A DNA stretch of 64,000 nt from Plumapathes pennacea. Taxonomy: Eukaryota; Cnidaria; Anthozoa; Antipatharia; Myriopathidae. The stretch is from contig OZ038462.1 of NCBI GenBank assembly GCA_964036295.1, positions 20,230,863 through 20,294,862 of the forward strand, read 5' to 3'. The position numbers were made by a program, and so were the translations under genes. Positions 3,001 through 12,000 of this stretch are shown in pieces. The notes under the pieces were generated by a model. That model saw only the letters and a program-made list of their open reading frames with translations. It did not search any database and was not told the DNA's origin. Numbering within the stretch: position 1 is the stretch's first letter; each line of letters opens with the position of its first letter.

Positions 3001-6000
3001 CGTAGAAATTACCACAGTTTCGCACATTGATTGTGATATCTTTGATGCAGGTATTGCCTCTAAAGCTAAAGCACACTTTTTTCGCCACTGTTCCCTCTTC
3101 ATATGCAGGATGAGCCTCTGCCAAGTATCCAGGAGCGTGGGTATTACACCGTTTATCAGGAGGAGCACTGGTAGACATAACTGTTCCGCCAGCACCTTCA
3201 AAGCGGACCCAGCCAGGCGTCAAATCATTGCTATCATCACATCTTATATTGCTTTGGTCAGTATTGTCTTGAGATCTGTCTGGCTCGTTCAGAATTCTAT
3301 GACCTCCTTGTCCTTCATCACAAGGTGTTATGGCTGCAACACAAGATACACAGAGGATAGTCCTTTCATGATACTCCTAAAAAAAAAAACAGTTTAATTT
3401 ACTATACCAGGAGGTCTATGTAAACAGACGTCGTATTTTGCTGGTGTCTGGCAGGATATCCTGCGTACAGAAACTCCTTCAGCTTTCCCAACTAGAAACG
3501 TGGGAAGTAAAGAGAACGTTCTGTCCAGACTGTCAGCTCTTGATCTTGTGTCTCCGCTGACCGATGGCCCGTTCCCAGGCTTTTTGCTCGCGGCTGCGGC
3601 GAGCTCCAATTTGCAAATTCTTCTTTCTTTTTCTTTTTTTTTTCTTTTTTTTTTTCGTTGTTTTCTGGGTTGAGAATCAGCACACGGTGATTGTTTCACA
3701 TTGTCACATGAAATGCGATGCCATAATTGACCTCGCGAACAACTGCATCCTATTCAAACTCAGCACCGTTTGGCTCTGTGGAACATGCACGGATAAACTG
3801 GATTTTAGGGAATGATTTTGGCTTGCGTTCCTTAGTTCACCGCGGAAGCTTTAAGAGTAGTTCAGTGGATTCGGTTATTTGATGGATACCGCTACGGGAT
3901 TGGAAATAACTTTGTCGCCGCTAAATATTTAGTCCCGATCGACGAAACTTTCTGCGGCGACACGATCGCGAAATACTTCTGGGAAGATACCAGGCCGAAA
4001 CCAGAAACCAAAGCTATGATGAACTTTAGCCGTAAAATAGTGACGATATATGCTTTAAAGTGTACACGACATCTGTTGCCTCATAAAATGCTTCTGTTGA
4101 TCGTACATTGTCTGTTGAAATGTTTCTTTCATTTGATCATGTAGCCTTAGTTGTTTTGCAATGGCCATTATATACTAGAAATGAACAACACACCGAAATA
4201 GTCCTGAGCATTGATTTGCAGTCACAAATAGACTGAACACACTTGTGAACAAAACTGCAATAACAGTGTAAACAAGTCTTGTGTTACATTCCTTGCTTTC
4301 AATTTTATATTTATTAAAGAGCACGAATGCTCGAAAGCCTGATAGAAGAAACGCATTCAGTTAAAAAGGAGACAGACGAGTATTGAAGCGAAGGCTGGAT
4401 TAACCGTGGCCTTTGATTAGAAATAAGTGTTCGAAGTCAAACTGTCAAAATAGACTGTGTATAAAAGAGATATAATTAAAGTCACGCATTACTCAGCTTT
4501 TCTTGCTGGCTGACCCTATTTGCTCCTAAGTTTAAAATGCAGTCCCTCAACCTTTAAGAAGCAAATGCATGAGTGTTGTAATGATAATGTATAGTTTAAT
4601 CAGGTTTTATTTGAGCAAGGTGTCAAAAGCCAAGTTCTCAAGTTTCTGTCACTAGATCCTCGGCTGAGGGATTCAATACGGCAGTCGCTGACCACCTTTG
4701 TCGCTAATTTGTGACTGCTTTAGTTTTCAGACAGACAGACAGATTGATTGATGAACTGATTGATTGATTGACCTTTATTTGAGTTTCCCGCCATTGCAGA
4801 GCTAAATTCGCACGTCCGTTACATAGAGTGGGCTGCGATGCGATAGATAGACAGACAGACAGATAGATAGACAGACAGACAAATAGACAGACAGACAGAC
4901 GACAGATAGATAGATAGATAGATAGATAGATAGATAGATAGATAGATAGATAATTATATAGAATACAGTCGGTGCGATGTCTTCGGATTTTACTGCAAAT
5001 GTTGACTCTGTATTAAAGATGATCACGTACTAACACGTTACAAAACGAACGGGAATATTACAAAATCTCACATTTTGGTAAAAAATAGCCATTTTGTGCA
5101 AATCATTCCAAAATAAGTCATAATTTATGGTAAAATATCACACCAAAAGCTAGAATTTACCAACTGCGGTTTCTTTATGGTATTTTAAGCCCTTTTCTTC
5201 CCTATTTTTCCAGTACTTGAAAATATGGGCATTGGAAAGAATTAAGCGATTTATGCGTTCTTTTGCCATAAATTTAAAGAACGTTATCACGGCAGTAACA
5301 ATTGTCCGATTTTAACTATTTTTCCCACAAAGAACGACACACTGCAAAGTACATTTTGACAAAAAGTCCATTTATTTTCCATTTCACTCAACTTAGTATA
5401 AAATCATGGTAAAATACAGTTACGTGTCTTCAATCTGGCCATCGGTGCAAGTTACTCTAAAAAAGCATGGTAGCAATCGGGAAAAAAATGCTTATTTGCA
5501 CCACTACAGTTTTTTAACGTATACAACATATAAGTCTAGAGATCTTAAAATGTAGAATGTGGTGGAAATTTCCACGGACTTAGAAATCTCATGGAAATTT
5601 CCACGGCCCCAGAGATCTCATGGAAATTTCCACGGCCCCAGAACTCTCATGGAAATTTCCACGGACTTAGAAATCTCATGGAAATTTCCACGGCCCCAGA
5701 GATCTCATGGAAATTTCCACGGCCCCAGAACTCTCATGGAAATTTCCACGGACTTAGAAATCTCATGGAAATTTCCACGGCCCCAGAGATCTCATGGAAA
5801 TTTCCACGGACTTAGAAATCTCATGGAAATTTCCACGGCCCCAGAAATCTCATGGAATTTCCACGGCCCCAGAAATCTCGTGGAAATTTCCACGGCCCCA
5901 GAAATCTCATGGAAATTTCCACGATCCCAGAAATCTCATGAAATTTCCACTGAAATTCACCCAGAAATCTTGAAATATACATCCGGTGTCGGCGGAAAAC

Positions 6001-9000: not shown

Positions 9001-12000
9001 AGTGATCACTTCAATTTTCTCCCTCGGTCTCTCATCAGAGGTACTGTATAAATGGTTTATAGTGAGAATTTCCCAGTTGATAGTTCACTGCTCACATGAA
9101 AGCTGATTGCTCTCAATTCTCACATCACTTGTACATTTTGTTTTTCTATGGTTGTGATTATGAGCTCAGAATTAAAAGGGTTAAGGATTAGGCAAGAAAA
9201 GAACATTTGATCATTAGGATGTTCTACTGAAAACTATTTTTCATTCTTGAGAAAGCAGGAAATTACATTGTTTAGACTGCCTGTAGCCAAATTCCAAAAC
9301 TCTGCTGGGATAGCATGACACTGGACCTTCCTAGAAAGCTTGTGCCATGGTACATAATGTAATCAGGGACAATGTTATTACTGTGAACATTATAATGATT
9401 GACATGTCTGAGATTTTGTTACCAATTCTCCCACCATCTCATATCTGTACAGTGGTCTGGTGAATTGTCCAACCAGCTTTAACCTAAGGTTACTGGCACC
9501 GGTATATATATTTTTTTCTTGTGTACAATGCTGTATGTTATTTATTTTTTTATTGAGAGAATTAAAGAGACAATGGAAGTTGATCACTCAGGAGTAAAAG
9601 AGTTTAACAATAAATAAGGTGGGGGGGTGTGTGTTTTATAAATTTTTGTTGCTTTACAGTGCTAAACTGTATTTTACTAGCACAAAAAAAACTACTCATG
9701 GCATCTTCATTACTTATTAGCCAGAATATCAGCTCAATTTTTGACCAGATCATTTTTTTTTTTGTCAGGTAGGAGAGACTATGCATGATACAGTACTGCA
9801 TTATGTGCATTTCTTTTTCCTCATTTATCAACATTTCCCTAAATACTCCTTGGTAATTTGAATATACCTCAAGTTGGCTGTCCAGTTTTGATAAAATAAT
9901 GCCAAATATATGAATGAAACTTATTTTTGTTGGGGCTGGGGGTTTTCCAGACCTCCTTGTAGGTACCTTTAATTTTTCAGTTCCATCGAAGTCAACATTA
10001 TAGTACGGTTACTGTATTACTGTATGTCTACCTTTTAATGAGAGCTATTATAAGATCTGTGGAGTGTCTTAATTAATTGGATATATATATATATATATAT
10101 ACAGTCAACCTCAAAAAGGTTGTCCAGTTGACTTACCACGTGACTACTGAGAAACTCCATATAACTACAGAAAAATACATTATATGAGAATGTTTGTATA
10201 ATTTTATTGTTGCCAGTCATTTAAATGGTAAAATCAAGAGCATTTGAAGTATTTTCAGCTCAAAACACGATAGTTTTGTGTGGTCACGTGACAGATATAT
10301 TTGTCTATTTATTTATTTTGACTGGACAACCTTTTTAGGATTGACAGTATGTATGTATATACATAGAGAGAGACACACACACACACATACAGTATAATAT
10401 AAGTAAACATTGAAACATTACTGATTTTATTGAAATTGGTTCAAAATGCTATTTTTGTAGATCATCCTTAAACTACAAGCAAACAGTATAGGAGAATTTG
10501 GTGTGAACTGCCTGTAAAGTATTAAAAGTTACAAGTAACAGGAAACGTACAACATACTTCATTTGTAACAGATAAAAAAGAAATATTTGTCATGAGACAA
10601 ACGTTTTTAACCCCTCCCCCCCCCCCCCCCCCCCCCCCCGGGTGATTAGATATTTCACAGTTTGAGCTTTTTGGTGTTCTCATAGTCAAGAGTTTCTGAA
10701 TTAATTAAACACATTTATATTCTACAATTGCAAAGTCGTGAGCCAGTGATAGGCCAATTTAGCTGAGAATGAGCGTTATTGAAACAATAGTTCCATTTGT
10801 ACCGTACTCATAGGAAAATAATTTATGTTATTTTCATGTTACATCCAATGCTTATTTCATAAAAGAGCAATAAAAGAAAGTTCTGATGTACATAACTTTG
10901 TGCTCGTGCAGTTATTTGGAGAAGGTTCCAGTTGAGGCTGATTGCAAGCCCAACGCTGCTTCATGCTTTCATTCATGGACATCCACGGCAAACCTTGGGC
11001 TCATGGAATTTTCCACGACAGTTGCCCATGACTTCCACTCGTGGGAATTTCCTGTACAGCTCAATTCAAGACTACAGCACATAGACATTTCAACAGCAAA
11101 TCCAGACTTCGATCATGGAAATTTCTAACACTCATTGAAATTTCCATCGCTCATGGAAATTTCCACCGCTCATGGAAATTTCCAACACTCATGGAAATTT
11201 CCATCGCTCATGGAAATTTCCACCGATCATGGAAATTTCCAACACTCATGGAAATTTCCATCGCTCATGGAAATTTCCGCCGATCATGGAAATTTCCACC
11301 ACTCGTGGAAATTTCCACCGTTCATGGGAATTTCGTGAGTCATGAAAATTTCCATCGCTCATGGAAATTTCCACTGATCATGGAAATTTCCATGGTAGGC
11401 TAGAGACAAGGTAAAAACATGGTCTAGTGAGGAAATTTTACCAATCAGTTTTTTTGAGCAGTAAAAAATAACACGAATTGCCTGATTTTACCAAAGGTTT
11501 CAATTTCTGGTAAAATACACCTTAATTAATGAAATTTTTACTTGGTCAACTCGAGTATTTAAGTATTTTGGTAAAAAATAACACGATCAACTAAAATTCA
11601 CCAAAATTTTAACATTTTGTAATATTCCCGTTCGTTTTGTAACGTGTTTACTGTAAGGAGCGTAAGGAAAGATGTGAAAATTTTGACCGTCGCCTTTCTA
11701 CGTACAAAACATGTAAATGCATGCGTTAGTCGTTTCAAAATAAGAATTTAATAGGAATATTCGTCATCCTGTTTCTTGGAGAGTTTGCTAATTCTGTGGT
11801 GAAAAATTCTCAATTACAAAATAAGTTGTCTAGTTTGAGACCCCCTCAGAAGAAAATGCATGAATGATGTGCTGAGAACTGATAGTTTATCAGCTGAATT
11901 TGAGCGAGGTATCAATCCAAGTTCTCGATACTGTGTGTTAGTATATACCACACCAGTGAATAGTGCTTTTCGCGCGCTCTGATTGGCTCCTCAATCTCGG

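Follow-up and report, generated by a model that had tools for sequence, protein, structure and literature searches.

Within 64,000 nucleotides of the genome of the antipatharian Plumapathes pennacea (assembly GCA_964036295.1, contig OZ038462.1; C1:20230863-20294862 in the designations used here, and hereafter the window) lies a 6.6-kb DNA transposon, at window positions 5032 to 11648, that very probably derives, as a non-autonomous and recently moved form, from a group of two-gene transposons. Longer members of this group carry a DUF7869 gene, the presumed transposase, together with a second and usually divergent gene whose C-terminal part resembles the beta-class N6/N4 DNA methyltransferases. 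Of the methyltransferase-like gene, the window element keeps just the final three exons, and it lacks DUF7869, because its middle differs from that of the longer members. An earlier reading of the letters alone (the sequence-only reading) had described the element as a probably young insertion with perfect inverted ends, palindromic subterminal arrays, a methyltransferase-like cargo gene and no visible transposase, and had suggested a search with its terminal inverted repeats (TIRs) for longer members with a transposase. Such relatives were found; in them, DUF7869 is accompanied by a longer version of the methyltransferase-like gene.

Boundaries, copies and termini of the window element

The element, the target site duplications (TSDs) that flank it and its principal internal parts are as follows.

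5028..5031, no strand: left TSD, TACT
5032..11648, no strand: complete non-autonomous DNA transposon, defined by its TIRs, its TSD and six copies sharing the same ends
5032..5066, plus strand: left 35-bp TIR, with TTACAAA twice, 20 bp apart (positions 7 and 27)
5563..5950, no strand: left subterminal array, 29-bp period, palindrome GGAAATTTCC
7737..10080, no strand: central segment with no DNA-level similarity to the longer relatives, holding a 58-amino acid (aa) piece seen only in the six copies
10081..10365, no strand: dispersed repeat of 285 bp nested in the element, with many genomic relatives
11113..11392, no strand: right subterminal array, 19-bp period, palindrome GGAAATTTCC
11614..11648, minus strand: right 35-bp TIR, identical to the left
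11649..11652, no strand: right TSD, TACT

The left end (5032-5066) reads AACACGTTACAAAACGAACGGGAATATTACAAAAT, and its reverse complement stands at 11614-11648 with 35 of 35 positions identical, in agreement with the sequence-only reading. Across the genome searched (290 Mb, 24 contigs), a slightly degenerate form of this end was found at 23 places with up to three mismatches, against none for the reversed-pattern control. A whole-genome search with the window element returned five more full copies, near-identical to it, at C4:8976546-8983020, C2:15770936-15778963, C9:11133510-11140562, C4:22145327-22151749 and C2:12222633-12233955. All six terminate at the identical base pair, corresponding to 5032 and 11648, and each is flanked by an exact 4-bp TSD (TACT, CACT, TTTA, TTTG, ACCA and TTTA). 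Thus, the boundaries are certain, as had been proposed from the intact TACT duplication in the window, and the five different TSD sequences mean that the six copies cannot in general have arisen by segmental duplication.

The window element is young and recently mobilised. Four of the copies, aligned whole, are 98.95-100% identical in each compared segment, except in the left array and at element positions ~950-2640, and the expectation of a young insertion is thereby borne out. The exceptional segment (window 5981-7671, element 950-2640) contains the exons described below and forms a patch in which two sets of copies are ~95-97% identical, against ~99% or more elsewhere: the window and C4:8.98 copies differ by ~4.5% from the C9 and C4:22.1 copies within it, and by ~1% or less in the DNA that flanks it. 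In this segment, the residues of the C9 and C4:22.1 type resemble those of an older relative on C7, and the simplest reading of the patch is an exchange between element lineages.

Similarity to the C7 relative ends at element position 2705, and the central segment that follows (7737..10080) by inference occupies the place where the upstream methyltransferase-like exons and DUF7869 would be expected. It contains a 58-aa open stretch at window 8025-8198 that is 97-100% alike across the six copies and for which the genome yielded no further relative. This stretch was considered as an alternative first exon of the methyltransferase-like gene and set aside, being confined to the six copies and followed by a frame that is broken in the copies compared. 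The nested repeat at 10081-10365 has dozens of relatives elsewhere in the genome, mostly 77-95% alike, and is 100% alike in four copies compared. The longest copy, the 11.3-kb C2:12222633, was rejected as an autonomous member of the family, since its extra 4.2 kb represent a retroelement nested in it, encoding reverse transcriptase, RNase H and integrase, instead of a family transposase. The open reading frame (ORF) of that retroelement (L014, 803-4471) runs for 1223 aa and is stop-free; this is therefore probably a young insertion inside the element copy.

As had been stated, no transposase was found within the window element itself. Pfam searches with 10 further ORFs, taken from its 67 stop-to-stop frames of at least 40 aa, gave just two matches, both to unrelated families and below cut-offs (E 0.04 and 0.07), and tblastn with the DUF7869 exons of the relatives found none in the element.

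The termini have a regular internal structure. In each end type, a 7-mer found at position 7 recurs exactly 20 bp further on, at position 27, and its sequence changes with the type: TTACAAA in the window family, TTCCAGA at the left end of an element at C1:26.08, and TTTCAAA in a third type. Such co-variation would be expected of a transposase binding site that a subfamily-specific protein recognises. In the window element, TTTTACC is additionally enriched over the outer few hundred bases, with three occurrences on the left (shuffle mean 0.23, reached in 2 of 500 shuffles) and five on the right (shuffle mean 0.22, reached in 0 of 500). Inward of these lie the palindromic arrays, which differ between families. 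Both arrays of the window element, noted in the sequence-only reading, were recovered with their 29-bp and 19-bp periods; the left holds 12 perfect occurrences of GGAAATTTCC and the right 11, with none at element positions 950-6070. Arrays that are palindromic or near-palindromic occur in three subfamilies with differing sequences, namely GGAAATTTCC, TCTGCRATCGCAGA and GGTCACAGTAATTGTTGTGACC.

Two further element ends, L016 1001 and L017 6125 (C1:42309328 and C2:6125), lie near contig ends and have their flank in common; they therefore probably represent a single chromosome-end segment that was duplicated, rather than two separate insertions.

The methyltransferase-like gene and its DUF7869 partner

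The recognisable gene content of the window element is limited to three exons on the minus strand.

7473..7667, minus strand: methyltransferase-like exon mt1, homologous to exon e5 of the longer relatives (tblastn to relatives; limits by eye)
6967..7209, minus strand: methyltransferase-like exon mt2, with QKPVALY and motif I DVCSGAG (PF01555, relatives)
6617..6724, minus strand: methyltransferase-like exon mt3, the last exon (comparison with relatives)

When joined by eye, these exons match the N6_N4_Mtase profile PF01555 over its C-terminal part, with E=1.8e-5 and 25.2 bits, where the curated cut-off is 26.7. The match proposed in the sequence-only reading is thus present at a score slightly short of that cut-off, and the same is true of a second joining of the window exons (24.3 bits) and of a query that joins exons of two relatives (24.9 bits). 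The S-adenosylmethionine-binding motif I region that follows the KP residues is present, and the pattern KP..LY ... D.CSG.G is invariant in 5 of 5 rows. Among solved structures, the top matches to a five-row profile of exons e6-e7, one row of which joins two loci, are the DpnA, RsrI and Mbo45V methyltransferases, at borderline E values of 0.012-0.1 over the first five matches. Matches to methyltransferases in PHROGs and NCBIfam were weak, and no relatives of exon e6 were found in viral contigs or phages.

All three exons are open in the window, with mt3 one residue shorter than in a sibling. Exon mt2 is broken in four of the five siblings, by a frameshift in C4:8.98 and by stops in C9, C2:12.2 and C4:22.1, and is open in C2:15.77. 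No match to the upstream exons e2, e3 and e4 of the longer relatives was found in the window element. The idea of a methyltransferase-like cargo gene consequently stands as to its C-terminal N6/N4-methyltransferase likeness and changes as to its nature: the window gene is a three-exon 3' remnant, missing its upstream exons, of what is a recurrent partner gene in the longer relatives.

Relatives of the methyltransferase-like gene occupy 14 loci outside the six young copies, and several of these include exons e2, e3 and e4. Exon e4 ends in VF(F/L/I)(D/N)(L/I)PK, a stretch whose place and context fit catalytic motif IV of the beta-class enzymes. The motif expected there is (D/N/S)PP(Y/F/W); instead, [DN][LI]PK is read in 7 of 7 e4 exons of the relatives (two from one tandem duplication), with a lysine in place of the expected aromatic residue. 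This alteration speaks against ordinary catalysis by the protein. A ParB-like domain in exon e2 was also considered and discarded, since the by-eye likeness of VI(D/G)GNHRRE lacked profile support; no match to a ParB or sulfiredoxin-like domain was obtained for this exon in Pfam or PDB searches.

The DUF7869 domain (PF25273) was identified in relatives at 101.3, 37.2, 114.7 and 53.6 bits, above the curated cut-off of 26, with conserved DGMDQ and DNC..ENKN segments and a GHTHE segment. Across the genome, its profile gave 71 matches, which were merged into 37 loci. No relatives of DUF7869 were found in viral contigs or phages. It is presumed here to be a catalytic transposase of DDE/D type.

The clearest case of both genes within one element is C1:26077751-26085632 (7882 bp), in which both ends are AACACGTTCCAGAATAACTTTC, ATAA flanks each side, and TCTGCRATCGCAGA arrays lie inside both ends. 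The DUF7869 exons are on one strand and the methyltransferase-like exons on the opposite strand, in divergent orientation, and the terminal motif AACACGTTnCAnAA is common to this element and the window element. An older relative at C7:4875249, ~91% alike to the window element, combines a family-A end with methyltransferase-like exons and DUF7869 exons. At four further loci (C6:17200384, C10:13119811, C10:13144538 and C1:38534938), an end of the third type (AACACGTTTCAAAACCAACTGGCATATTTCAAAA), or near it, lies 1.0-1.9 kb 3' of the last exon found for the methyltransferase-like gene; the opposite ends of these four were not found. From C2:21906501-21944828, just the right end, the DUF7869 exons and the methyltransferase-like exons were used, as the region proved by eye to be a patchwork with other transposon-like ORFs and was rejected as a single 28-kb element. 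Nine further inverted TIR pairs were picked among ~100 listed of the 159 places that fit an end pattern (reversed control, 87 and 95), the pattern being used for picking only, and seven of them have exact 4-bp TSDs. Together with 6 of 6 family copies and the 7.9-kb relative, these bear the marks of TIR (cut-and-paste) DNA transposons.

The two genes are linked more often than placement alone would give. Of the 14 methyltransferase-like loci, nine have one of the 37 DUF7869 loci within 25 kb, and eight of the nine pairs are divergent, C7:4877 being the exception. Random shifts of 60-500 kb gave a mean of 0.61 linked loci and a maximum of 5, and shifts of 0.1-2 Mb a mean of 0.36 and a maximum of 4; 0 of 20,000 reached nine in each. 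The six young copies, none with a nearby DUF7869 match, and a weak match at C6:17571948 (E=0.15) were left out of this count, two C8 matches 37 kb apart were taken as one locus, and the two C10 loci were counted separately. An earlier version of the count, with 11 loci, had seven linked. The C10 loci (L063 and L064) stand in a ~25 kb tandem duplication that bears the DUF7869/methyltransferase-like pair.

Both genes also show signs of constraint in their sequences, in that protein-altering changes (pN) are rarer than silent ones (pS) between lineages. For DUF7869 exon D2, the comparison of L035 with L020 gave pN 0.20 and pS 0.94. The corresponding pN/pS values for the methyltransferase-like exons were 0.27/0.85 for e2, 0.16/0.71 for e3, 0.22/0.70 for e4 and 0.29/0.69 for e6. 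These are signs and not precise ratios, because most pairs approach saturation at silent sites. Near the window family the pattern is mixed, with pN 0.062 and pS 0.033 for e5 between the window and C7 copies, on 53 codons.

Elsewhere in the window, positions 62374-64000 consist of a G-rich minisatellite of GTGGTGATGATGATACTA units, with a GC skew of up to 0.73, that continues past the window end. Additionally, a 235-aa open frame at 29574-30281, with an ending that is EGF-like by eye, suggests an exon of an animal host gene.

Proposed mechanism and competing explanations

In the mechanism proposed, a DUF7869 transposase produced elsewhere would act on the window element in trans, binding its ends through the two subfamily-specific 7-mers 20 bp apart. 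It would then excise the element and insert it through a 4-bp staggered cut. The family-specific palindromic arrays would most likely be binding sites for the transposase or for a partner protein.

Several observations weigh against this account. The C1:26.08 element has stops within its matched stretches and its exon e2 was not found, and therefore no intact autonomous copy is demonstrated; the second 7-mer of its right end is TTCTAAA instead of TTCCAGA. The C7:4877 copy carries both genes in the same orientation. Two of the nine further TIR pairs are without an exact TSD, one agreeing in three of four bases (CAGC/CAGG) and the other, probably a chance pair, having unrelated flanks and ends. 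The C10 loci, with their identical flank CAATTCTT, represent a single insertion that was duplicated; taking them as one leaves 8 of 13 loci linked and 7 of 8 pairs divergent. Two of the linked loci, C7:5112545 and C2:18208317, match e2 only, at 28% identity, and closely resemble each other. At five of the 14 methyltransferase-like loci, no DUF7869 match lies within 25 kb; these include the loci at C6 and C1:38.5, both with a TIR end. The pairing is likewise not universal, because 28 of the 37 DUF7869 loci are without a methyltransferase-like match within the same distance and 9 have one. Finally, PDB searches with DUF7869 gave nothing relevant, and its transposase fold and activity are presumptive here.

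The unpaired loci, along with the truncation of the gene in the window family and the broken mt2 of most siblings, are what would be expected if the methyltransferase-like exons were a host gene fragment captured by chance and their proximity to DUF7869 reflected the general clustering of transposons. Such a capture is very improbable. Local shifts that preserve regional clustering link at most five loci against the nine observed, and neither the prevailing divergent orientation, the TIR ends beyond the 3' end of the gene at several loci, the enclosure of both genes in one two-ended, TSD-flanked element, nor the constraint across subfamilies accords with it. A different proposal takes the partner gene to encode an active DNA methyltransferase that would act on the palindromic arrays within the element, thereby marking or protecting it. 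The conserved motif I region, the first five structural matches, borderline and all to DNA methyltransferases, and the occurrence of such arrays with different sequences in three subfamilies would suit this role; the altered catalytic motif argues against it, and subterminal binding repeats that involve no methylation are known from many transposons. This proposal is accordingly considered unlikely.

As to classification, the element may belong to a superfamily that is already catalogued and has TSDs of 4 bp, Sola being the likeliest, in which case DUF7869 would be the Sola transposase and just the partner gene would be unusual. Sola elements have 4-bp TSDs, DDD transposases, sizes of 2-9 kb (some >15 kb) and variable termini (PMC10741241), and the DUF7869 segments named above are in keeping with such an assignment. 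Against it, DUF7869 is named in no paper of the open-licence literature searched. Membership of Sola is thus a possibility of some weight, if short of probable. More doubtful is that the group constitutes an uncatalogued animal superfamily, in which DUF7869 would act with a partner derived from a prokaryote-type methyltransferase that recognises, and perhaps modifies, the arrays, with transposase, partner and arrays changing together between subfamilies. The derivation of the window element from a group of DUF7869/methyltransferase-like transposons is held with considerably greater confidence than either of these finer assignments.

Relation to known systems and significance

Few eukaryotic transposons with enzymes of DNA-modification type are known, and the role of these enzymes in transposition is largely open. 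N4CMT of bdelloid rotifers is reportedly a host gene that deposits N4-methylcytosine and lies outside any transposon, unlike the gene described here. The two are alike in being amino methyltransferases of bacterial type in an animal (PMC8885841). There are also the fungal DNA transposons with TET/JBP genes (Kyakuja, Dileera, Zisupton and others), in which a second gene for an enzyme of DNA-modification type stands beside the transposase; they differ in that the enzyme is a dioxygenase, in the 8-bp TSD of Zisupton, in their other transposase lineages and in their fungal hosts (PMC12730594). Virus-integrated Mariners similarly combine a transposase and a methyltransferase gene in one transposon, with the differences of a Mariner transposase, an added endonuclease gene, other methyltransferase domains and residence in viral genomes (PMC3627910). 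Together, these two systems show that DNA-modifying partners do occur in transposons (PMC12730594; PMC3627910).

Among families defined by their TSDs, the likeness to Sola lies in the 4-bp TSD, the size range, the variable termini and, putatively, the DDD transposase (PMC10741241; Sola2 is treated in PMC3627910). The difference is that the open-licence literature searched yielded no Sola element bearing a methyltransferase-like gene. Ginger1 and Ginger2 share the 4-bp TSD and were rejected, as their termini are TGTNR and their transposase is of integrase type (PMC2836005), where the termini here are AACACG. Some IS481EU families also have 4-bp TSDs; others have 15- and 25-bp TSDs, and the group is distinguished by TGT termini where given, parabasalid hosts and an IS481-type transposase (PMC10045372). 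The TTAA-specific piggyBac and Kolobok were excluded by the TSDs found here (TACT, CACT, TTTA, TTTG, ACCA, TTTA, ATAA and seven others), none of which is TTAA. The pairing of DUF7869 with an N6/N4-methyltransferase-like gene was not met in the open-licence papers searched.

The main interest of the window element lies in the two-gene transposon group to which it points, with ends of the AACACGTT type. The group lends itself to direct tests of this pairing: its three subfamilies differ in both ends and palindromes, there are copies of very recent origin, and the partner gene shows signs of constraint. DUF7869 thereby gains a concrete candidate role, as a transposase that would generate a 4-bp target duplication.

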